A DNA stretch of 11,631 bases from an uncultured Clostridia bacterium (lineage in GTDB: Bacteria > Bacillota > Clostridia > Oscillospirales > Ruminococcaceae): positions 1 to 11,631 of the forward strand of contig CAMYUO010000019.1 of assembly GCA_947302065.1 (NCBI GenBank), written 5' to 3'. The notes beneath the pieces are model-generated. The model worked only from the letters and a program-made list of their open reading frames with translations, made no database searches and had not been told where the DNA came from. Shown in pieces: positions 2,399 through 11,631 of this stretch. The position numbers were made by a program, and so were the translations under genes. Each line of letters begins with the position of its first letter. Within the stretch, counting starts at the first letter, position 1.

Positions 2399-3280
2399 TC
2401 AGTATGCGAAAGTGAAAGTCGATTCGTCGCTGTCGACCCAGACATAGCCTTCCTTGGTCATTACAATGTGACCTTCGTGGTTAGCGTCGATCTGCTTGCC
2501 TTCAACGATATTGCCCTTTTCATCGTAAACCATCTCGGTCTTTGTGCCGCCTGCGTAGTACATCTTATCCTCGTAAACTGTTGCCAGGATGCCGTAAACG
2601 ATATATGAGTTCTCGCCGTTCGGTACCTTTACTGTGCAATAAGCGGTATTGTAGGGATCTGCCTTTGCAACTGTGAGTACGATGCCGCGTCCGTTTACCG
2701 ATTCAAAGTCGCCCGAGAAAACAGCTGTCGGAGTTGCATCGGTCTTTTCATCGGCAGCTGCCTTATAGTTGCAGCCGCTTTCGCCGGGGTGTTTTCCGTT
2801 CACATCAACATAATTGCAGCCTGCCTCGCCGGGATGCTTAACTACTTCTGCGGTCGGCTCTGCCTGTACTTCAAGAACTGACTGAGCCTGCTTTACAGCT
2901 GGCTGTGTGTTATTTGTATCAGCTACGGTCTGGTAGTTATAACCGCTCTCGCCAGGGTGCTTGCCGTTTGCATTAACTGCTTCGTCCTTCTTGTTTTGCT
3001 CAGGCTGAGCAGCTTTCTGTGTATTTTCAGACTTTTCGGTCTTATCTGTCTTGTTTTCGGTTTCTGGCTTCTGTGTTTTCTCGGTAACAGCTGTGTCAGG
3101 CTTTACGGTTATTGAAAAAGCCGATCTTACAGGTGCGATCTCACTTGTGTTTGCAGATGCGCTGAACACTGCGATGCCAGTTACCATTGCTGTTGCTGCG
3201 ATAACTGCGCAGATGGAAGCTGCGATCTTCTTGTTTGTTCTTCTTACCTTTGTTGTGTTGTTCTTGTTTGTGTTTTTCAT
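2399..3280 (-). CDS. Secreted protein with three KHPGE[S/A]G[Y/C]NY decapeptide repeats
   Basis: A 293-residue protein of unknown function. Residues 1-43 are a Gram-positive signal peptide: a Lys/Arg-rich N region, a hydrophobic core (about 19-40) and a likely cleavage after ASA. Residues 45-105 are a low-complexity Thr/Lys/Glu/Pro linker. Three copies of a decapeptide follow: KHPGESGYNY (107-116), KHPGEAGCNY (148-157) and KHPGESGCNY (163-172), two preceded by NG. Residues about 185-293 look like one small beta-rich domain ending in FTFAY. The start at 3280 was chosen because AAGGAG lies about 8 bases upstream and it begins a proper signal peptide; the longer frame reads through the leader and promoter. 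No anchor motif is visible, so the product is probably released. I do not recognise the C-terminal domain. Confidence 0.85.
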   Translation of the reverse strand: MKNTNKNNTTKVRRTNKKIAASICAVIAATAMVTGIAVFSASANTSEIAPVRSAFSITVKPDTAVTEKTQKPETENKTDKTEKSENTQKAAQPEQNKKDEAVNANGKHPGESGYNYQTVADTNNTQPAVKQAQSVLEVQAEPTAEVVKHPGEAGCNYVDVNGKHPGESGCNYKAAADEKTDATPTAVFSGDFESVNGRGIVLTVAKADPYNTAYCTVKVPNGENSYIVYGILATVYEDKMYYAGGTKTEMVYDEKGNIVEGKQIDANHEGHIVMTKEGYVWVDSDESTFTFAY

Positions 3281-3331
3281 AATGCTTCTCCTTTTTTTAT
3301 AACAAAGTTTATATTTCCTTGGTGTGATTAC

Positions 3332-3360
3332 ATAATAGCACCGAAAAGCGAAAAACACAA
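3332..3360 (-). promoter_or_regulatory. Promoter of the KHPGE-repeat protein gene
   Basis: Read on the - strand: TTGTGT (3360-3355), a 17-bp spacer, then TATTAT (3337-3332). Transcription would start near 3325, leaving a leader of about 45 bases. The -35 box is poor, which fits dependence on an activator. Confidence 0.5.
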
Positions 3361-3377
3361 TATTCAATATATGCGTG

Positions 3378-3425
3378 ATTTGTTGCATAAACTACACTAT
3401 GCAGGCGGGCAGTAGTTTATACTAC
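3378..3425 (-). promoter_or_regulatory. Candidate operator upstream of the KHPGE-repeat gene
   Basis: Contains TATGCAACAAAT (- strand, 3389-3378), identical to 1976-1987. Also present are the palindrome GTAGTTTATACTAC (3412-3425) and AAACTAC (3389-3395) facing GTAGTTT (3412-3418). The cluster ends about 18 bp upstream of the -35 box, a plausible activator position. Which protein binds it is not shown; the nearby XRE-type regulator is the obvious candidate. Confidence 0.4.
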
Positions 3426-3943: not shown

Positions 3944-4002
3944 TGGCTCCCCCAGTTGGACTCGAACCAACGACCCTGCGGTTAACAGCCGCATGCTCTA
4001 CC
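3944..4002 (-). pseudogene. tRNA-Asn (GTT), 3' fragment lacking its 5' end
   Basis: Read on the - strand, 4002-3944 gives GGTAGAGCA (D-loop and 3' D-stem), an anticodon arm TGCGG-CTGTTAA-CCGCA with anticodon GTT, a normal T-arm containing GGTTCGAGTCC, the 3' acceptor strand TGGGGGA, discriminator G and an encoded CCA. The expected 5' acceptor strand TCCCCCA and the 5' D-stem GCTC are absent: sequence upstream of GGTAGAGCA is unrelated and AT-rich. The gene cannot make a cloverleaf. A 3' tRNA fragment of this kind is what integration or excision of a mobile element at a tRNA leaves behind, and a recombinase stub lies 120 bases away. A reverse-frame ORF across it is an artefact. Confidence 0.8.
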
Positions 4003-4122
4003 AGTGTAGACAAGTTAACCATTATGTAACAGTAAAAGCCTATTTTCAATCGAAAGATCCCTTTTGTTGTTTATTAATATCCTTATACATATTATATATG
4101 AAAAGCCCATTTAATTCAAGCA

Positions 4123-4443
4123 TTATTTTAAATATGTTCCCATCCACCCCTCACAGAACTGTTCGTAATCCATGTTTAGCTGTATATTTATGCTATACCC
4201 CTTGCCAATCTCGATTCTGCTTATCAGCTGGGAGATTATCATCTTTTTCTGCTCTGTTGGGACAAGGTCAAATTCTTCTGCCCAACCCTTGAACTGTTCA
4301 TACATAGGTTTTATCTTCATCATTGCATTTTTCTTGTTATTGAGCTCTTCTTCAGTTTTCTCTATCTGCGATTCTATAGCTGCTATGTTTTGCTGTACCT
4401 TGGTCATTGCCATTGATAACTGCTCTGGGGAATAAAAGCTCTC
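4123..4443 (-). pseudogene. C-terminal remnant of a large serine recombinase
   Basis: An open frame ending at 4123 encodes the tail of a large serine (resolvase-type) recombinase. A helical coiled coil (QQNIAAIESQIEKTEEEL) is followed by the family's C-terminal signature around EQKKMIISQLISRIEIGKGY and a final beta strand with DYEQFC. The recombinase-like reading continues upstream of the internal ATG at 4413 as SFYSPEQLSMAM to about 4440. The catalytic serine domain, the recombinase domain and the zinc ribbon are all missing, and the helical-protein gene begins at 4449. It is therefore a stub of roughly 100 residues with no start signal, not a working gene. Low GC relative to its surroundings also suggests foreign origin. 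The exact 5' boundary is uncertain. Confidence 0.7.
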
Positions 4444-4448
4444 CCCTA

Positions 4449-5840
4449 TCAGCGTATCATATAGTACATAGGATACTGTGCTTCGTTCCTGCTCACTGTT
4501 GTCCAGCCTATGGATACATAAAGATACAGGTTTTCAGATTCATTATAGTTCTTATCCTTCAGATCAACGCCCTTGTAGTAATAGTTGCGAGCACAGCCTG
4601 AGCTCATCTGCATACTTTTCGGCCCGCCCATATTCACCATCATAAAGGCTTTTTCATAATCATTGCCTGTGAACTTGAAACCCACATATTGCAGAAATTC
4701 TCTGAGAGTTTTTTCCGGGTGATAGGTCTTCACATAATTGATAATATACTGCATCTGCTCGGTGCTGAGTATCCTGTCGCCGGGAAGGATGTTCTTGAGC
4801 TCTTTTGCAGCGGTGAAATCCGTCCTTCCGAGGGTTTCAAGCATCGGGATATTCTTCTGGGTATTTCCCGAGTGATCGTAGAACATAAGCGGATTGGTGT
4901 TTTTCCTGTATTTATTGATACAGGTTTTAACGTCTTCGACCTGCTGAAGGATGCTCTTGATCTTATCCACGCAGTAATCAGCATCGCACTCGGCGGACTT
5001 GGTACCCTGACGAAGCAGCTGGGCTCTTTCTGCGAGCAGACAATCTATCATCTCAATGCTGCCTTGCAGATAGATCGCAGCTGCATCTCCGATAAAGCTA
5101 TCTGTCTTCTCGATGGCTTCTTTTCCGAAGCAGACGGATTTGGAATAGTGGTTTACCATGGTCGTGTAGATCGTATTGTTTCCGGAGCTGAGCTTCTTTT
5201 CTCCGGTCAGATAATCACCGAGGATGGAAAGGGCGGAAACCGCGTTGTCCTCGTTTACCCATTTCTCACGGGTGCCGATCAGATTTGCCATTTTGATATC
5301 CTTTTCCTCCTGGGGCAGATTGTTCCAGCAGGATATCTGATCGAACTGGATGTGTATCTCACGGCAGACACGTTCAAAGTTATTATATGCCTTAACAAAT
5401 TCAGCCATATCGTTTGCCGAGGCCATGGCTTCGATGAGGTCCTTCTTCATATCCTTCATATCACAGGAAATGCTTCGCATCTTCTTTGCAAGACTGTCCA
5501 GGGTGACCTCCGGTTCATCACCGGTGTAAAAGGCTTTCATCATCTGGATGAAGGGAACGGTGACAAACTTTACTTCCGGGAAATTCTCCGCGATCAGAGC
5601 GGCTGCGCCTTCCGCACTTTTGATAAGCCCTTTCAGCTTATCGTCCGACTTGACAAGCTCAGTGATACCGCTGATCGTTTTATCGGTGTTCTCATCGAGC
5701 TTATCCGAGCTTATGCCTTTAGCCGTTATCATTGTACTTTCCGTTCCGGATACGTCCATCGCGTATGCCGAGTAAGGTGCTATTACTGTCATTGTCATTA
5801 CGCACGCCAGTGTTGCTGCTAATTTTTTCATTTTGTTCAT
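4449..5840 (-). CDS. Secreted mostly helical protein of unknown function
   Basis: A 463-residue exported protein. Residues 1-27 are a signal peptide ending AYA. The mature chain is predominantly alpha-helical by pattern: a long N-terminal helical region with one markedly hydrophobic stretch (about 78-104, around AALIAENFPEVKFVTVPFIQMM), amphipathic helices with KMRSISCDMKDMKKDLIEAM at 120-139, and a second apolar patch around GDAAAIYLQG (251-260). The C-terminal part (about 395-463) looks more beta-like and Tyr-rich. The mature part has nine cysteines. The ATG at 5840 is eight bases from AGGAGG, versus 17 for the ATG at 5831. The gene starts five bases after the PAP2 stop and so belongs to that operon. 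The architecture loosely recalls helical pore-forming toxins, but I find no diagnostic motif. The stop abuts recombinase debris, so the native C terminus may be altered. Confidence 0.85.
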   Translation of the reverse strand: MNKMKKLAATLACVMTMTVIAPYSAYAMDVSGTESTMITAKGISSDKLDENTDKTISGITELVKSDDKLKGLIKSAEGAAALIAENFPEVKFVTVPFIQMMKAFYTGDEPEVTLDSLAKKMRSISCDMKDMKKDLIEAMASANDMAEFVKAYNNFERVCREIHIQFDQISCWNNLPQEEKDIKMANLIGTREKWVNEDNAVSALSILGDYLTGEKKLSSGNNTIYTTMVNHYSKSVCFGKEAIEKTDSFIGDAAAIYLQGSIEMIDCLLAERAQLLRQGTKSAECDADYCVDKIKSILQQVEDVKTCINKYRKNTNPLMFYDHSGNTQKNIPMLETLGRTDFTAAKELKNILPGDRILSTEQMQYIINYVKTYHPEKTLREFLQYVGFKFTGNDYEKAFMMVNMGGPKSMQMSSGCARNYYYKGVDLKDKNYNESENLYLYVSIGWTTVSRNEAQYPMYYMIR

Positions 5841-5845
5841 TTGAT

Positions 5846-6493
5846 TTACCTCCTGTTTAAGATTGTAATTGTGCAACTGTTCCGATTTTGTTTTCTTTGC
5901 TTCTGTAGAAAAAAATGCCGTGTGACCATATATCCGACAAGCCCTGAAGCTATACCGATCACCATGCCTGCAACCACATCGCTGGGATAATGAACGCAGC
6001 GTATGATCCTTGAGCAGCCTACGATAACGGGAATAATGAACAATGCCCATGCCCATTTTTTCTTTTCCTTGAGAAGTACGGCTGCCAGTGCGGTGAAGAT
6101 AAGGAAATTAACTGATGTATGACCGGAGGGGAAAGCCGGATCATTTTCAAGGAATCCGCCCGCTTTGGTCCAGTGAGCATTATAGGTATCCCAGAACGGA
6201 GTGTTCTGTAAGGTAACGTAAGGTCTGTCTCTTCCGACGGCAAATTTGACCGCCTCCATAGATACAAGACCAACAATGAATGCAACTATCATTGCTACTC
6301 CGTATTTTCTTGTCTTTTTCGGAAAGCAGAGGAGCAGGGAAACAACGCCGTAGATCGTGTATCCCAGGCTGTCGCCCGTGTATTGACAGAAGTTTGCTAT
6401 TGCGATCGTAAAGCCGTTTTGAAACCACCATATAAACTTGTATACGGCCGTATCAAAACCGAAAAATAACAGATCGATCATTGTTCCCAACAT
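5846..6493 (-). CDS. PAP2-family membrane phosphatase
   Basis: A 215-residue integral membrane phosphatase of the PAP2 superfamily, which removes phosphate from lipid phosphates such as phosphatidate, diacylglycerol pyrophosphate or undecaprenyl pyrophosphate. All three signature motifs are present: KFAVGRDRP (about 83-91), PSGH (122-125) and SR-(5)-H-(3)-D (161-172), including the catalytic histidines. About five to six membrane segments surround them, and the C-terminal tail is basic. The ATG at 6493 was preferred (AAGGAG with an 11-base spacer) over a TTG at 6502, which would sit only two bases from that site. It is first in an operon with the helical secreted protein, transcribed from a promoter with a SARP-like direct repeat at 6566-6583. 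The substrate cannot be told from sequence. Confidence 0.93.
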   Translation of the reverse strand: MLGTMIDLLFFGFDTAVYKFIWWFQNGFTIAIANFCQYTGDSLGYTIYGVVSLLLCFPKKTRKYGVAMIVAFIVGLVSMEAVKFAVGRDRPYVTLQNTPFWDTYNAHWTKAGGFLENDPAFPSGHTSVNFLIFTALAAVLLKEKKKWAWALFIIPVIVGCSRIIRCVHYPSDVVAGMVIGIASGLVGYMVTRHFFLQKQRKQNRNSCTITILNRR

Positions 6494-6548
6494 ATTTATC
6501 AAGACTCCTTTCGATTCTTTCTTTGTAAGCTCTGTTTAGCTTGATCAT

Positions 6549-6583
6549 ATAATACAACACCCATCCTTGCAAAATCATTGCAA
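6549..6583 (-). promoter_or_regulatory. Promoter with SARP-like direct repeats, PAP2 operon
   Basis: Read on the - strand: TTGCAAT (6583-6577), a 4-bp spacer GATT, TTGCAAG (6572-6566), 11 bp, then -10 TATTAT (6554-6549). No -35 hexamer is present at the normal distance. The heptamer pair has an 11-bp period and the same distance to the -10 as at 9962-9996 and 11401-11435. Confidence 0.7.
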
Positions 6584-6905
6584 ATGATGGGGCTGGCAAA
6601 AAACTTTTTTGATATAGGCAAAACCGCACATCCGTTCGGAAAAGCAGCGGGTGCAGCACCTTATCTGCAAACAGATGCCATAGCTGAAAAAATCAGCAGT
6701 ATGCTTGACATCTTCCGCCCGCTGTACTATAATGATGACAGCATCAGCGAAGGAGCGAACTGAAATGACTTGCTTTAACGCTTACACTCTGCATAGCGGA
6801 GAATTGCAAGTCTCGTCCCCGCAGAAGAGATCCATATTGTGCTGTGTGCAGATAATTCGGAGAGCCATTTCAGGGAGCTTGCTTAGTTACCGGTCCTTGA
6901 CATAA
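6578..6905 (+). pseudogene. Possible decayed gene remnants
   Basis: On the + strand a 61-codon frame (6578-6763) is followed, after a good GAAGGAG site (about 6750-6756), by an ATG at 6764 whose frame starts MTCFNAYTLHSGEL. A second frame from about 6809 reads LVPAEEIHIVLCADNSES and stops at 6886, looking more protein-like than the original frame after that point. This is compatible with the end of one gene and the frameshifted start of another. No family is recognised, the first frame begins inside the PAP2 operator, and chance is a real alternative. Confidence 0.25.
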
Positions 6906-6945
6906 GAAACACCGTCTGCACACGGCAGGCGGTGTTTCTTATGTC
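6899..6945. repeat. Long near-perfect inverted repeat
   Basis: GACATAAGAAACACCG (6899-6914) pairs perfectly with 6930-6945; the stem then continues through a T-G pair and CTGC/GCAG around the loop ACACG, about 21 bp in all. No T tail follows on either strand that would make it an ordinary terminator. Confidence 0.6.
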
Positions 6946-7002
6946 GGCGTGACCATAGATCAGATCATAGTTACAAAAAGACATCTGACTATCCCGCCGA
7001 CA
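6942..7002. repeat. Second inverted repeat abutting the first
   Basis: TGTCGGCG (6942-6949) pairs with CGCCGACA (6995-7002). Inside it, ATAGATCAGAT and ATCTGACTAT are imperfectly complementary. It shares four bases with the preceding hairpin, so the two structures could be alternatives. Confidence 0.4.
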
Positions 7003-7040
7003 CACCACACATATTCCTTAAACAAAAGGCTTTTTATCTT

Positions 7041-7079
7041 GCTGTGCTATCCCCCGCCGGAGGCGGGGGATAGCACAGC
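7041..7079. repeat. Perfect 18-bp palindrome with 3-base loop
   Basis: GCTGTGCTATCCCCCGCC (7041-7058), loop GGA, and its exact reverse complement (7062-7079). It is more GC-rich than its surroundings and lies between the convergent remnants and the kinase gene ending at 7154. Neither side has a T run, so a REP-like repeat or element end fits better than a standard terminator, though it could still stop kinase transcription. Confidence 0.7.
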
Positions 7080-7153
7080 GTTGGTCTAATTGCCGTAATC
7101 TCCTAAATAAGGTGTTTGAAAATGGTGTGTCAAAGGGATAACCATATAAACAA

Positions 7154-8827
7154 TTAAGCAGTCCCTGTATCAGCATCGCTGCCCTTGTCCTTCGGGATAA
7201 TGACCCTTGCCGTTGTCCCTTCACCGATGACGCTTGTTATCACCACATCGGCATTGCAAAGGTCTTTAAGGCGCTTTCTTGTGTTCTCTATGCCGATATG
7301 CGAGCGCCCGTCCTCTTTCCTCGGGGCATCGGCATCAAAGCCTACACCGTCATCCGCAACGGTAACTATGAACGCATCCCCGGTCTCTTCCGAAGATATC
7401 GTGATCGTTCCGCCCTTTTTCTTCTGACCTACTCCGTGCTTGACTGCATTCTCGACAATAGGCTGTATGCTCAGCAGCGGTATCTCGAAATCCATTGTAC
7501 GGATATCATAAACGATATTCAGCTTTTTCCCGAACCGGAGCTTTTCGATATACAGATACTTTTTCAGATGCTCTATCTCTTTTTCAAACGGGACCGGAGC
7601 AGTCTGCTTCAGCGAGTCCATATTGCACCGGATGTAATCCGAAAACTCGACAATAGCCTCCTGCGCCTTTTCCGGGTCAAGGGTGCAGAGCATTGCTATA
7701 GAGCTTAACGCATTGTACATAAAGTGCGGCCTTATCTGCGACACCATTATCTGCACCTTAGCTTCGTAAAGCTCCTTTTCAGCACGCTCGTGCGCAGCTG
7801 CGATACGGATGTTCTTCTTGGTGTAGTTGTCTATCTCCAGCGCCATATCAGAAATGGAATCGGCAAGGAACTGCAGCTCGTTGTTCTCTTTTATGTCGTA
7901 CATTTTTGAAACTATCTCGGAACTTTTCTTGTTCACGGTATAGTCGATTATCGCTTTTTGTATCTTAACCGTGGGCCTGACAGATCTGCGGTACAGTACC
8001 ATAAGTATTATCACCATTACCAGCAGTATTCCGCCGATACTGAGTATAAGCGCTGAGTTTATCGAGGTAAGTGCCGAGGAGTGTATCTCGTCCCAGTCGT
8101 ACACCAGTCCGATCACGCCGCGCATCTTGCCGTTGCAGAATATGGGCTTGTATCCGATGTAGTATCTGCCTTTGTTCGGAATATTTGACGAGCGTTCAAA
8201 CACGATCTGATCTGAGTTGCTTTGCAGGATATTATCTAAAACAGGGTGATCTGAGATGTCATAATGATCCCCCAATTCCTTGTGCGTATCTATCTTGCCG
8301 GACTGATAGATAACCATTCCGCGGTGATCCTCGGTCATATCCATAACAAAAACGCAGTCCAGATTGCTTTCGTCAACGTAGTTCGAGGTAAACATTACCT
8401 TTTCTTTAAGGGTCTCATTTGCAAGGACCTTTGCGATGTTATGAGGCAGTCTGTCATACCATGATTTGTAAGGGTAGTCATCGTCAAGGTGATTCGTATA
8501 ATAATCATAGAGCGTTGCCTGTTCCTCATCACTAAGCTGTTCTAACGACTCCTCGGGATATCTCTCCCAGAAGTCAAAGCAGAAGGTCAGAGTGTAGTCG
8601 CCCTCTCTCGGCTCCTCCAGCAAAAAGTACTTATCGTATATTCGGTTGAGCAGATATTCCATATGTGCATTCTGAGCATCAAGGTAGGAGTTGGTGACAG
8701 AGTGATAGACCACCCACGAGATACCTGCGATAAGCAAAACAAACAGCGGCAGCAGCACTGCTCCGATCTGAAACAGCAGCGTTTTTTTTACCTTTTTTGG
8801 ATTCAGCTTCAGCTTTTTTTCACTCAT
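7154..8827 (-). CDS. LytS/YesM-type sensor histidine kinase with extracytoplasmic sensor domain
   Basis: A 557-residue membrane kinase. A basic N terminus precedes TM1 (about 17-41); residues 43-255 form an outer sensor of Cache-like size and layout, including RYYIGYKPIF and GVIGLVYDWDEI near its end; TM2 spans about 257-279. A HAMP-like linker and coiled coil lead to SQIRPHFMYNALS with phosphoacceptor His368. The ATPase domain has IVENAVKHG (Asn460), DDGVGF (492-497) and IGIENTRKRL (511-520), all intact. The ATG at 8827 was chosen because a GGGGGG-type ribosome site (8837-8842) lies nine bases upstream and it follows a consensus promoter; a GTG at 8854 has no such site. The regulator gene lies upstream on the same strand, but each gene has its own promoter. 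It probably senses a small extracellular ligand, identity unknown. Confidence 0.94.
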   Translation of the reverse strand: MSEKKLKLNPKKVKKTLLFQIGAVLLPLFVLLIAGISWVVYHSVTNSYLDAQNAHMEYLLNRIYDKYFLLEEPREGDYTLTFCFDFWERYPEESLEQLSDEEQATLYDYYTNHLDDDYPYKSWYDRLPHNIAKVLANETLKEKVMFTSNYVDESNLDCVFVMDMTEDHRGMVIYQSGKIDTHKELGDHYDISDHPVLDNILQSNSDQIVFERSSNIPNKGRYYIGYKPIFCNGKMRGVIGLVYDWDEIHSSALTSINSALILSIGGILLVMVIILMVLYRRSVRPTVKIQKAIIDYTVNKKSSEIVSKMYDIKENNELQFLADSISDMALEIDNYTKKNIRIAAAHERAEKELYEAKVQIMVSQIRPHFMYNALSSIAMLCTLDPEKAQEAIVEFSDYIRCNMDSLKQTAPVPFEKEIEHLKKYLYIEKLRFGKKLNIVYDIRTMDFEIPLLSIQPIVENAVKHGVGQKKKGGTITISSEETGDAFIVTVADDGVGFDADAPRKEDGRSHIGIENTRKRLKDLCNADVVITSVIGEGTTARVIIPKDKGSDADTGTA

Positions 8828-8870
8828 GATCCCGTTCCCCCCTAAGACCTGCACTGCGTTTCACAGCTAA

Positions 8871-8899
8871 ATTATATCATCTGACTCTGCTCCTGTCAA
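8871..8899 (-). promoter_or_regulatory. Consensus sigma-A promoter of the second kinase gene
   Basis: Read on the - strand: TTGACA (8899-8894), 17 bp, TATAAT (8876-8871), with an extended TGA directly before the -10. All twelve hexamer bases match consensus. Start near 8864 gives a leader of about 37 bases. No direct-repeat box is present. Confidence 0.85.
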
Positions 8900-8946
8900 G
8901 AAGGACCCCTTATGCAAACAAGCAGAGACAGCTCGGTAAAATCAGC

Positions 8947-8988
8947 AAACGCATATCTCCCCGTGCTCAGACAGGAGAATATGCGTTT
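8947..8988 (-). terminator. Probable terminator between the SARP regulator and the kinase
   Basis: AAACGCATATCTCC (8947-8960) pairs with GGAG-A-ATATGCGTTT (8974-8988), about 14 bp with one bulge, located 30-70 bases after the regulator stop. The T run is better on the + strand (TTTTTGTTTT); on the - strand TTTGCTGATTTT follows. Confidence 0.55.
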
Positions 8989-9019
8989 TTGTTTTCCGGG
9001 GCTGCACGCCGTCTTATTA

Positions 9020-9808
9020 TCAGTAAAGGTCCTCGTCGAACAGGAAATCCGCCCAGTAATACTGGCTCATATACTCGTTCTGATAAGAATTCACCGCACC
9101 GGCATCCAGCTGCTTGAAGCGGTAATAGTCACAGTCAAGCACCTCCGGGTTTACTGCAAAGGCATTGTATGTGTGTATAAGCGCTGCCTCTGCGCCGACG
9201 TTCTTCAGGCTTTTTTTGAGAGCATATATGTAGGTCTGCATAAGGTTTTGATTTTTTTCGTCATACGGCTCGTCCTCGAAAAGTGCGGCAAATATCTCCC
9301 GCGAGGTACACGATGCCCCCTGCTTATGCACCAGATAGGCAAACATCTCCTTTGCCTTGCTTCGCACAAACTTTACGTGCTCACCGTCCGGCGTGAACAC
9401 ATCAAAATTGCCAAAGCACTGCACACGCAAAAGAGCATCGCTTTTCGGCACGATAGGAAAGCGAAGATCGGCAAGCTCCTTTTCGACCTTGGCCTTGGAG
9501 ACAGGCTTCATTATATATCCGCTTGCGTGCATATTCATAGCGTCGCCTGCATATTCCGAAAAGCCCGTTACAAAGATGATATTCATTTTGGGATTGATCT
9601 CCTTGAGCTTTTTTGCGACCTCAACGCCGTTCATTCCTCTCATGTGAATATCAAGGAAGGCAATGTCGCAGCCGTTTTTCTCGGCGTCCGTTATAAGCTC
9701 ATCCTGATCGTCAAAAGCGGTAACGTCCGCATCGGGCTTTGCTTTTTTGATCGAAAGCTCCAGCATCTGCAATGCCAGCTCCTCATCGTCAAGGCAGAGT
9801 ATCCTCAT
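9020..9808 (-). CDS. SARP-family response regulator (receiver plus winged helix)
   Basis: A 262-residue regulator, the likely partner of the kinase at 7154-8827. The receiver domain (1-118) has Asp8/Asp9, phosphoacceptor Asp53 in FLDIHMRG, Thr81 and Lys101 in KP. From about 126 a winged-helix domain of the SARP/OmpR type begins with VQCFGNFDVFTPDG, continues with the RSKAKEMFAYLV helix and the recognition region around 167-200, and ends near NAFAVNPEVLDCDYYRF. It stops soon after the start of what would be a BTAD domain, the normal length for receiver-SARP regulators of clostridia. The ATG at 9808 was chosen because CCTCCT (AGGAGG, 9818-9823) is nine bases away. SARP proteins activate promoters through direct repeats with 11-bp period; three such promoters lie in this window. 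Confidence 0.93.
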   Translation of the reverse strand: MRILCLDDEELALQMLELSIKKAKPDADVTAFDDQDELITDAEKNGCDIAFLDIHMRGMNGVEVAKKLKEINPKMNIIFVTGFSEYAGDAMNMHASGYIMKPVSKAKVEKELADLRFPIVPKSDALLRVQCFGNFDVFTPDGEHVKFVRSKAKEMFAYLVHKQGASCTSREIFAALFEDEPYDEKNQNLMQTYIYALKKSLKNVGAEAALIHTYNAFAVNPEVLDCDYYRFKQLDAGAVNSYQNEYMSQYYWADFLFDEDLY

Positions 9809-9888
9809 TGTCCTGTTCCTCCTTTGCAGGCAGCCTGTTTTATCGGCTATTGTCACTGTGTACAGCCTCGTTGCTTTATTCCGATTTT

Positions 9889-9917
9889 ATTATATCACTT
9901 GAAAAGGTCAGAGTCAA
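9889..9917 (-). promoter_or_regulatory. Sigma-A promoter of the SARP regulator gene
   Basis: Read on the - strand: TTGACT (9917-9912), 17 bp, TATAAT (9894-9889), again with TGA before the -10. It is divergent from the PI-PLC promoter, whose operator begins about 45 bp further upstream, and has no direct-repeat box of its own. Confidence 0.8.
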
Positions 9918-9961
9918 GGAGCTTTGTCTGTGTGTCCGTATTTTTTAATCTCCTCATTCCC

Positions 9962-9996
9962 TTGCAAGGATATTGCAAGGGTCGGTATGGTATATT
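9962..9996 (+). promoter_or_regulatory. Promoter with SARP-like direct repeats, PI-PLC gene
   Basis: TTGCAAG (9962-9968), spacer GATA, TTGCAAG (9973-9979), 11 bp (GGTCGGTATGG), then TATATT (9991-9996), with an overlapping TATTAT at 9993-9998. No -35 hexamer is visible. The stretch GCAAGGATA-(1)-TGCAAGGGTCGGTATG is shared almost base for base with the promoter at 11401. Confidence 0.75.
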
Positions 9997-10071
9997 ATGA
10001 TCACAGCAAGGGGAATACCCCGGACAAACAGTGTGATAAACACAGTATCAAAGTAAAAAAGGAGAATTGTT

Positions 10072-11262
10072 ATGAAAAGAAACACATTTATCGGAAAAAC
10101 GATCGGCAGACTGGCAGCGGCCGCAGTATCTGCTGTTATGATCGCAAGTTCATTATCATTCGGCGCATCTGCTCAGACCTTCGACACCAAATACGGCACC
10201 AAGGAAATCGAAAGCAGCAGCTGGATGAGTGCTCTGCCGGACGACATAAAGATCAGCGACATGAGCATTCCCGGAGCGCACGATGCCTCGACAAGAAATG
10301 TTATTATCGGAATGGGTCATTTTGCACAGACGCAGTATTTTTACATCAATGAGCTGCTCGAAATCGGTGTAAGATACTTTGATCTGCGGGTTTGCTGTGA
10401 TGATAACGGCGTACTGTATATGTGCCACGGGAAAGTCAATTGTTATAATTGCGCAGACTGCAGGATGACTCTTGGTGACGTTTTCGCACAAATGAGGAAT
10501 TTTCTCAGAGACAACCCAAGTGAAACGATACTTCTTCAGGTGAAATGCGACCGCTATGATAACAATGCACAAAATGAGACCTGGAACTTTTTAAAGGATA
10601 TGGCTGACGGCGGAGAGCTGTATTACGGCGACCATGTTCCCACACTCGGCGAGGTAAGAGGCAAGATGTATTTGTTCAGCAGACTTGACTTCGGAGAAAC
10701 GACTCAGAAGGATAAGTTTATGACTTTCGAGGATGGCAACATTTTTAAATTCCGCAGCTGGGGAATTGATGTACACAATTTCAGCGGTGGAAATACCGAA
10801 GAAAAAACTCTGGATGAGACTGCATACGGCGGGGTGCATAATTGCGTAGTAAATACGGAGGATATGTATGATGTTCCCAAAGCCGAGAAATGGGAATATG
10901 TTTACAACTCTCTAGTGGGGCCCCACAATGCAGCATACTACTCAGACGCAGGAAAAGATGTGGGTCTGGATACATTCAACATCATCTATGCGAGCATGAG
11001 CTATCAGAACTGGTATGAAGTTGCATTAAGAGTGATCCATCCGTTTTACAATCTGTTCAGCGATAAAGAGGCCATGGTATGGCCGAAAGAAGGTGCAGAT
11101 TACATCAATCCAAAGCTCAGAGCTCTTTTGGAGCATAACCCGACCCTTTATACAGGCTGCCTTGTTTGCGACTATATTGATAGATCTCTTTCGCAGGATA
11201 TTTATATGACAAACTTCATTGACCCGGCTGACTGCTCGTTCGGATATACCGGATCCTGGTGA
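10072..11262 (+). CDS. Secreted PI-PLC-like phosphodiesterase
   Basis: A 396-residue exported enzyme of the bacterial phosphatidylinositol-specific phospholipase C family, which cleaves the phosphodiester of phosphatidylinositol (in some members GPI anchors) to diacylglycerol and cyclic inositol phosphate. Residues 1-34 are a signal peptide ending ASA. The X-domain motifs are present in order: SIPGAHDAST with the first catalytic His70 and Asp71, GVRYFDLRV with Arg106, and YMCHGK with the second catalytic His119, then FLRDNPSETILLQVK. A C-terminal aspartate near VCDYID (367-370) may complete the site. The core carries several cysteines (CYNCADC, 124-130), more than the Bacillus enzyme. The ATG at 10072 follows GGAG with a seven-base gap. 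It has its own promoter with a SARP-like box and its own terminator. Substrate specificity is inferred from family only. Confidence 0.92.
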   Translation: MKRNTFIGKTIGRLAAAAVSAVMIASSLSFGASAQTFDTKYGTKEIESSSWMSALPDDIKISDMSIPGAHDASTRNVIIGMGHFAQTQYFYINELLEIGVRYFDLRVCCDDNGVLYMCHGKVNCYNCADCRMTLGDVFAQMRNFLRDNPSETILLQVKCDRYDNNAQNETWNFLKDMADGGELYYGDHVPTLGEVRGKMYLFSRLDFGETTQKDKFMTFEDGNIFKFRSWGIDVHNFSGGNTEEKTLDETAYGGVHNCVVNTEDMYDVPKAEKWEYVYNSLVGPHNAAYYSDAGKDVGLDTFNIIYASMSYQNWYEVALRVIHPFYNLFSDKEAMVWPKEGADYINPKLRALLEHNPTLYTGCLVCDYIDRSLSQDIYMTNFIDPADCSFGYTGSW

Positions 11263-11322
11263 AAACAGCCTTCAAATGCGACATATATGACGAATTTCAA
11301 CAGATAAATACAGTTATCAGAC

Positions 11323-11356
11323 CCGGTCTGTGCTTCAAAGCGCAGGCCGGTTTTTT
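11323..11356 (+). terminator. Terminator of the PI-PLC gene
   Basis: CCGGTCTGTGC (11323-11333), loop TTCAAA, GCGCAGGCCGG (11340-11350): an 11-bp stem with two G-U pairs followed by six T. Confidence 0.88.
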
Positions 11357-11400
11357 ATCTCCGGAAAAATTTTTTCAGCTTTTTTGAAAATCACAGAATA

Positions 11401-11435
11401 GTGCAAGGATAATGCAAGGGTCGGTATGTTATTAT
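11401..11435 (+). promoter_or_regulatory. Promoter with SARP-like direct repeats, small-peptide genes
   Basis: GTGCAAG (11401-11407), spacer GATA, ATGCAAG (11412-11418), 11 bp (GGTCGGTATGT), then TATTAT (11430-11435). Heptamer period, distance to the -10 and the GGTCGGTATG spacer match the PI-PLC promoter. Confidence 0.75.
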
Positions 11436-11597: not shown

Positions 11598-11631
11598 ATG
11601 ATCAGCTTTTGCATTCTTGGAGTCGGACTGT
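11598..11631 (+). CDS. Hydrophobic small peptide, MISF type, copy 2 (cut by window end)
   Basis: An ATG at 11598 is preceded nine bases upstream by AAAGGAG (11582-11588). The eleven complete codons visible read MISFCILGVGL, matching the first peptide in MISF and in the Cys/Gly-containing apolar run. It lies 40 bases after the stop of copy 1 with no terminator between, so the two are presumably one transcript from the promoter at 11401. The gene runs off the window and its length is unknown. Confidence 0.6.
   Translation, partial: MISFCILGVGL

Follow-up and report, generated by a model that had tools for sequence, protein, structure and literature searches.

The window analysed here, a stretch of 11,631 nucleotides of DNA from an uncultured Clostridia bacterium, carries three sites that belong to a large family of operator-like sites (Table 1). 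We propose, with a probability of roughly 85%, that the response regulator encoded between these sites is signalled by a LytS-type kinase and activates promoters devoid of a -35 box through paired TGNNNN repeats, and that this design is repeated in insulated paralogous kinase-regulator pairs.

In the proposed mechanism, a signal would lead the kinase (7154-8827) to phosphorylate the response regulator (9020-9808), which would bind as a head-to-tail dimer to two TGNNNN half-sites repeated at one helical turn (11 bp) and spanning about -41 to -24. The target promoters lack a -35 box, usually have an extended -10 (TGnTATNNT) and share a fixed start context (C/A.A, the stroke marking the predicted start). 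The bound regulator would substitute for the missing -35 and recruit RNA polymerase in a manner similar to AfsR or PhoB. In the window the targets would be the operon of the PAP2-family phosphatase and the 463-aa protein, the PI-PLC gene and the tiny-peptide operon. Many paralogous pairs, in Ruminococcus-like bacteria and mostly in ruminants, would share this design, each pair with its own half-site letters (read by helix residues about 186-205) and a diverged sensor, which would insulate the sister systems. If this is true, an annotated regulator family gains an operator, a promoter class and targets, and its members offer a natural data set for learning how the DNA specificity of a winged helix changes at constant geometry. 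Moreover, a class of tiny-peptide genes often overlooked by gene callers would become findable by its operator.

Table 1. Features of the window discussed in the text
Feature	Coordinates	Strand	Description
463-aa protein	4449..5840	-	Start resembles a signal peptide by eye; without a Pfam family above cut-off
PAP2-family phosphatase	5846..6493	-	Pfam; ATG at 6493 with ribosome-binding site (TTG at 6502 possible)
Operator 1	6549..6583	-	TTGCAAT GATT TTGCAAG N11 TATTAT (TGCAAT/TGCAAG repeat); putative promoter of the PAP2 gene and the 463-aa-protein gene behind it
LytS-type sensor kinase	7154..8827	-	His_kinase (PF06580) and HATPase_c
Consensus-like sigma-70 promoter before the kinase gene	8871..8899	-	TTGACA-17-TATAAT
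Response regulator, 262 aa	9020..9808	-	Receiver, OmpR/PhoB-like winged helix and short conserved tail; proposed operator-binding protein
Consensus-like sigma-70 promoter before the regulator gene	9889..9917	-	TTGACT-17-TATAAT
Operator 2	9962..9996	+	TTGCAAG GATA TTGCAAG N11 TATATT (TGCAAG/TGCAAG), extended -10 TGGTATATT; putative promoter of the PI-PLC-like gene
PI-PLC-X-like enzyme, 396 aa	10072..11262	+	PF00388, 23.4 bits (cut-off 23.1); signal-peptide-like start by eye
Operator 3	11401..11435	+	GTGCAAG GATA ATGCAAG N11 TATTAT (TGCAAG/TGCAAG), extended -10 TGTTATTAT; putative promoter of the tiny peptides
Tiny hydrophobic peptide, 24 aa	11483..11557	+	With ribosome-binding site
Second tiny peptide	11598..11631	+	Cut by contig end; 25 aa in a near-identical copy (G028:C232)

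Three operator-like sites in the window

A first-pass annotation, made from the letters alone, had pointed to three heptamer repeats in front of a -10, and we recovered all of them, each at its place and on its strand. Its description of these promoters as having no -35 box holds; it had overlooked the extended -10 (TGn) present at two of the three sites, operator 1 (6583) carrying TTG at this position. The predicted start position reads TC/A at all three. A genome-wide search with the heptamer pattern, which the annotation had suggested as a check, gave three matches in the source genome (a 70% complete draft of 2,172,444 bases in 380 contigs). All three fall in the window, and the reversed pattern matched nowhere. 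A looser form of the pattern also matched three times in the window, against zero in 200 dinucleotide shuffles.

The bare repeat TGCAA-N6-TGCAA gave 15 rows genome-wide (some places being counted on both strands), five of them in the window, versus six in the reversed control. Five of the ten rows outside the window were read: C143:1266, C143:1213 and C133:5338 look promoter-like, and C315:1125 and C106:1141 lie inside long ORFs. The two promoter-like sites at C143:1213-1281 (locus L005 of the source genome, G000) are divergently oriented; the script found no small ORF after 1266, and a protein that appears GGDEF-like by eye starts about 300 bp further on.

A large family of sites with rigid geometry

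We assembled 101 loci, comprising 20 regions around close relatives of the regulator, the best 80 of 183 named loci (those fetched being mostly ruminant-gut MAGs, with a few isolates) and the window itself. The pattern TGNNNN-N5-TGNNNN-N8-TGnTAnnnT, with at least four of six bases equal between the half-sites and TG among them, matched 146 sites in these loci and a single one when reversed. After removal of eight loci judged to be duplicates, at least one site was present in 49 of 93 loci, for a total of 114 sites. The period of 11 and the spacing of 8 are rigid. In a scan without any fixed repeat base (102 sources, 1.30 Mb, eight of the sources being duplicates), period 11 gave 151 matches versus nine reversed, and the other periods between 7 and 24 gave 6-32. 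Repeats starting with TG lie 8 bp from an extended -10 in 134 cases, compared with none in the reversed control.

Over all loci, the sites comprise 101 distinct sequences. In 78 of these the two half-sites are identical, and such identical pairs occur in 11 versions; the half-site types include TGCAAA, TGTAAG, TGTCAA, TGTTGT, TGTAAA, TGCAAG and TGTCCG. If the -10 is taken as -12 to -7, the repeats fall at -41 to -35 and -30 to -24, and with the same numbering the start context, which was outside the search pattern, is conserved: C at -1 in 96, A at +1 in 98 and A at +3 in 97 of the 101 distinct sites. More distant regulators, only 32-49% identical, have sites of the TGTTGC and TGTAAC types in eight of 16 loci, with none in the reversed control, and eight loci of other regulators used as a control contained no such site. 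Across 394 genomes of the order, the TGTTGC-type site matched once (reversed control, 0), so that this class is not widespread in the order.

Sites follow the regulator across genomes

Close relatives of the regulator (70-85% identical, plus identical pieces in G028) were present in seven of 29 genomes of the genus, that of the window included, and often several per genome. All seven carry sites (3-11 each), compared with two of the 22 genus genomes without a close regulator, namely G007 with three sites and G008 with one. G007 is 80% complete and no close regulator was found in it, which may reflect missing sequence or orphan sites. The same association holds in the family, for which 197 genomes were drawn evenly from a larger group: the four genomes encoding a regulator of at least 70% identity carry 6, 6, 9 and 2 sites, whereas only three of the other 193 have a site, one each (reversed control, one in all 197; Fisher 6e-7).

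Placement within genomes agrees with this. In Ruminococcus sp. FC2018, 10 of 10 pattern sites lie at most 5.6 kb from one of three close full-length regulators, and the TGTCAA, TGTAAG and TGCAAA site groups each adjoin their own regulator. When 7 kb around each of 86 distinct regulators were considered, a strict site was present for 43, a relaxed one for two more and no site for 41. Perfect repeats in the 41 site-less loci are at background level (five versus four reversed), and no site was found in the small loci of three close regulators (L096-L098). Strict locality of the operators was rejected as a rule: searching the genomes of 27 of the 41 site-less regulators revealed 36 sites in 15 of them, against none in the reversed control.

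Half-sites covary with the predicted recognition helix

Covariation was examined in 43 regulators, collapsed to 34. The half-site correlates with residues 186-205, the predicted recognition helix (Mantel r 0.487, partial 0.417, both p 0.0005), whereas r is 0.157 with the receiver and 0.074 with the tail. This stretch was picked after inspection of the alignment; the peak of a sliding-window analysis, at residues 187-198, is independent of that choice. Plain mutual information ranks two non-helix residues, 208 and 143, above those of the helix. The varying helix residues align with the AfsR helix RTYASRLRK in a non-significant profile match, and in AfsR, according to PMC10936776, T88 and R92 read bases.

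A tyrosine occupies position 193 in all 16 regulators that have a TGC-type site nearest to them and in none of the 27 with TGT. On a tree built without the helix, this rule amounts to only 2-3 independent changes, which leaves significance out of reach; the half-site class changes at least 18 times on that tree, in which seven of 39 inner branches are well supported. We then used Tyr193 as a predictor in the 27 searched genomes, where TGC half-sites occurred in 10 of the 16 entered through a Tyr193 regulator (one of these 10 having one TGC and one TGT half) versus three of the 11 others, a difference that is not significant (p 0.12). Three family genomes outside the set from which the rule was made (G098, G117 and G203) have Tyr193 in their aligned regulators (L096-L098, G098 having two further regulators outside the alignment), and 17 of their 17 sites are TGC, though the pattern permitted TGT. 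As a universal rule, residue 193 was rejected: the distant regulators L017 and L021 combine an aligned tyrosine with TGT sites, which confines the rule to the close clade.

Because the sites are rigid, the half-sites covary with the helix and sites and regulators co-occur across genomes, the response regulator of the window very probably binds and activates these promoters lacking -35 boxes. Its role as the binding protein, which the first-pass annotation had proposed, is supported by genome-level co-occurrence, by placement and by covariation with the recognition helix. In contrast, the idea of one compact regulon was too narrow, as the window holds one member of a paralogous family with diverging operators. 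We give slightly better than even odds to a recognition code in which paralogous two-component systems of one group reach at least 11 operator specificities on one promoter frame, via a few helix residues and diverged or swapped sensors, with several insulated copies per genome, each controlling its own secreted proteins and arrays of 20-28-aa leaderless membrane peptides.

Alternative explanations

Another regulator might bind the repeats, for example that of a second two-component system (8-1896), the 9020-9808 protein being a mere neighbour. This second system consists of a LytS-type kinase followed by a response regulator with a receiver and an XRE-type HTH output (HTH_3, 4.2e-15), to our knowledge an unusual pairing. 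The regulators with no nearby site (41 of 86) and the sites of G007 would fit such an explanation, which we nevertheless consider improbable: the sites recur at loci fetched through the 9020-9808 regulator alone, track the genomes with a close regulator of this type and are rare elsewhere in the searched genomes, and their half-sites covary with its own recognition helix.

The sites could also be ordinary sigma-70 promoters, with the second TTGNNN as a poor -35 used together with a -10 displaced by 5 bp, and with an upstream copy left from an ancestral duplication. A scan does find TTGCAA-17-TATGAT overlapping operators 1 and 2. However, in conserved register 12 bp separate the TTGNNN hexamer from the -10. 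Of the 101 sites, only 21 have A at position 2 together with T at position 6 of the hexamer displaced by 5 bp, and the C/A.A start context matches the unshifted -10. Both half-sites moreover change together in 11 versions, which a -35 would not need, and we regard this explanation as very unlikely. The chance is equally slight that the promoters derive from a single element that spread recently, their shared geometry reflecting descent and not binding. Similar leaders after the start in many loci and the few independent origins of the residue-193 rule agree with a spread; yet descent alone would not maintain equal halves, the 11 perfectly repeated half-site versions arose while period and spacing stayed fixed, and sites also occur beside the regulators of 32-49% identity.

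Regulator class and comparison with known activators

The receiver of the regulator is clear (PF00072, 3.6e-21) and present in 39 of 39 relatives. The winged helix matches Trans_reg_C (PF00486) with 24.2 bits, just under the cut-off of 26.2, and is seen in 29 of 39 relatives at E<=1. No BTAD (PF03704) was detected in any of the 39 relatives at E<=1, and the Pfam families listed for the regulator and these relatives include no LytTR match. The protein ends in a conserved tail, CDYYRF...EYMSQYYWAD, which could be a BTAD remnant. A profile of the DNA-binding part matched, in the PDB, EmbR with an E of 0.033, the OmpR-type response regulator 1p2f with 0.14 and AfsR with 0.34; no match is significant. 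The NCBIfam models that span both domains are of the OmpR/PhoB type (RprY, RpaB, CtrA and CreB), with scores far below their cut-offs. Among the matches listed, three of 120 relatives bear the name 'two-component SAPR family response regulator'.

PMC10936776 defines SARP operators by direct repeats 11 (or 22) bp apart ahead of the -10, and the repeats described here lie 11 bp apart ahead of the -10. A further mark is a distance of 8 bp between 3' repeat and -10, which here is 11 bp with the heptamer of the first-pass annotation, a value that depends on the repeat end chosen. The AfsR box extends from -40 to -19 with its centre at -29.5 (PMC10936776); the centre here is at about -30.5 if the conserved A is the start, which would put the repeats within 1 bp of that box. 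AfsR, DnrI and ActII-ORF4 likewise have boxes of 11-bp direct repeats just ahead of the -10, in promoters that lack a good -35. In contrast to SARPs, the regulator has a receiver in front and no recognisable BTAD, the half-sites are TGNNNN and the -10 is usually extended. SARPs target antibiotic clusters, whereas the targets here are secreted proteins and tiny peptides. EmbR is a relative of the SARPs; the winged helix resembles both it and AfsR, weakly and not significantly.

PhoB, for its part, replaces the -35 contact. According to PMC4832192, a hallmark of OmpR/PhoB-type regulators is that a tandem dimer binds 7-bp repeats held strictly 4 bp apart. Repeats of this spacing are present here, and the layout of a receiver followed by a winged helix recalls PhoB (Pho box) and PhoP of M. 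tuberculosis. Unlike these, the regulator has a winged-helix Pfam score just short of the curated cut-off, a LytS-type kinase as partner, an extra conserved C-terminal tail and several paralogues per genome whose operators differ. Of the label 'SARP-type' given by the first-pass annotation, the 11-bp direct repeats before the -10 stand; membership in the SARP family is not secured, BTAD being detected in none of 39 relatives and the 7-4-7 repeats being equally PhoB-like. We describe the protein as a regulator that would work like a SARP- or PhoB-type activator. Control of the agr and phenol-soluble-modulin type depends on a two-component system that turns on short, leaderless peptides encoded in tandem, a feature that the system described here would share; in contrast to agr, no LytTR domain was found, the operators are different and the peptides look like single membrane spans. 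A search of the open-licence literature found no paper on the operators of these regulators.

Kinase and own promoters

The genes of the kinase and of the regulator each have their own consensus-like promoter (Table 1), which suggests that they are steadily expressed and controlled by the signal; the window contains 35 matches of this consensus-like kind, where 19.5 would be expected. In a comparison of 72 kinases with that of the window, median identity was 67.5% in the kinase domain and 11% in the sensor part; owing to this low conservation of the sensor, the signals sensed by sister kinases probably differ.

Predicted secreted and tiny-peptide targets

The list of targets in the first-pass annotation proved right, the phosphatase and the PI-PLC-X-like enzyme by Pfam, and the 463-aa protein and the tiny peptides appearing by eye to be secreted or membrane-bound. 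Relatives of the 463-aa protein form 10 database clusters, one of them 99% identical. Over the site family, an ORF with a ribosome-binding site lies downstream of 106 of 114 sites (ORFs behind double operators being counted twice): 33 have at most 60 aa, 12 have 61-150 aa and 61 exceed this length; most ORFs of the last group begin, by eye, like a signal peptide. The near-identical copy in G028 encodes, after the peptides, a protein that matches Lipase_3 (PF01764, 26.2 bits; cut-off 22).

The minus strand of L054 (about 7500-8300) carries, behind a double operator, a row of seven ORFs of 20-28 aa. All seven have a ribosome-binding site, and six are hydrophobic by the cut-off used. Tiny-peptide genes of this kind are easily missed by gene callers. 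Tiny ORFs that have a strong ribosome-binding site are hydrophobic in 28 of 49 cases at most 1.8 kb downstream of a site, versus 30 of 228 elsewhere in the same loci. One peptide is identical in two loci whose codons differ by seven synonymous and no other changes, which indicates selection on this peptide; all seven peptide pairs counted together show 26 synonymous and 21 non-synonymous changes. A 28-aa relative (E<1e-3) was found in six of the 29 genomes of the genus, each of which also has a close regulator. The targets may together act on lipids or membranes, and the set may include membrane-active peptides; this is the weakest part of our reading.

PADLOC assigned none of six proteins to a defence family, and Rfam and tRNA scans of the window gave no hit. 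A protein encoded at 2399-3388 (-) has three copies of HPGE[S/A]G[Y/C]NY and no Pfam family at E<=0.01. Finally, visual inspection of the region 3950-4413 showed a sequence like the 3' part of a tRNA-Asn, absent from the ARAGORN calls, and an adjoining 96-aa ORF weakly resembles the C-terminus of a recombinase (XisF, E 0.0026, under the cut-off); together they are possibly an old integration scar.
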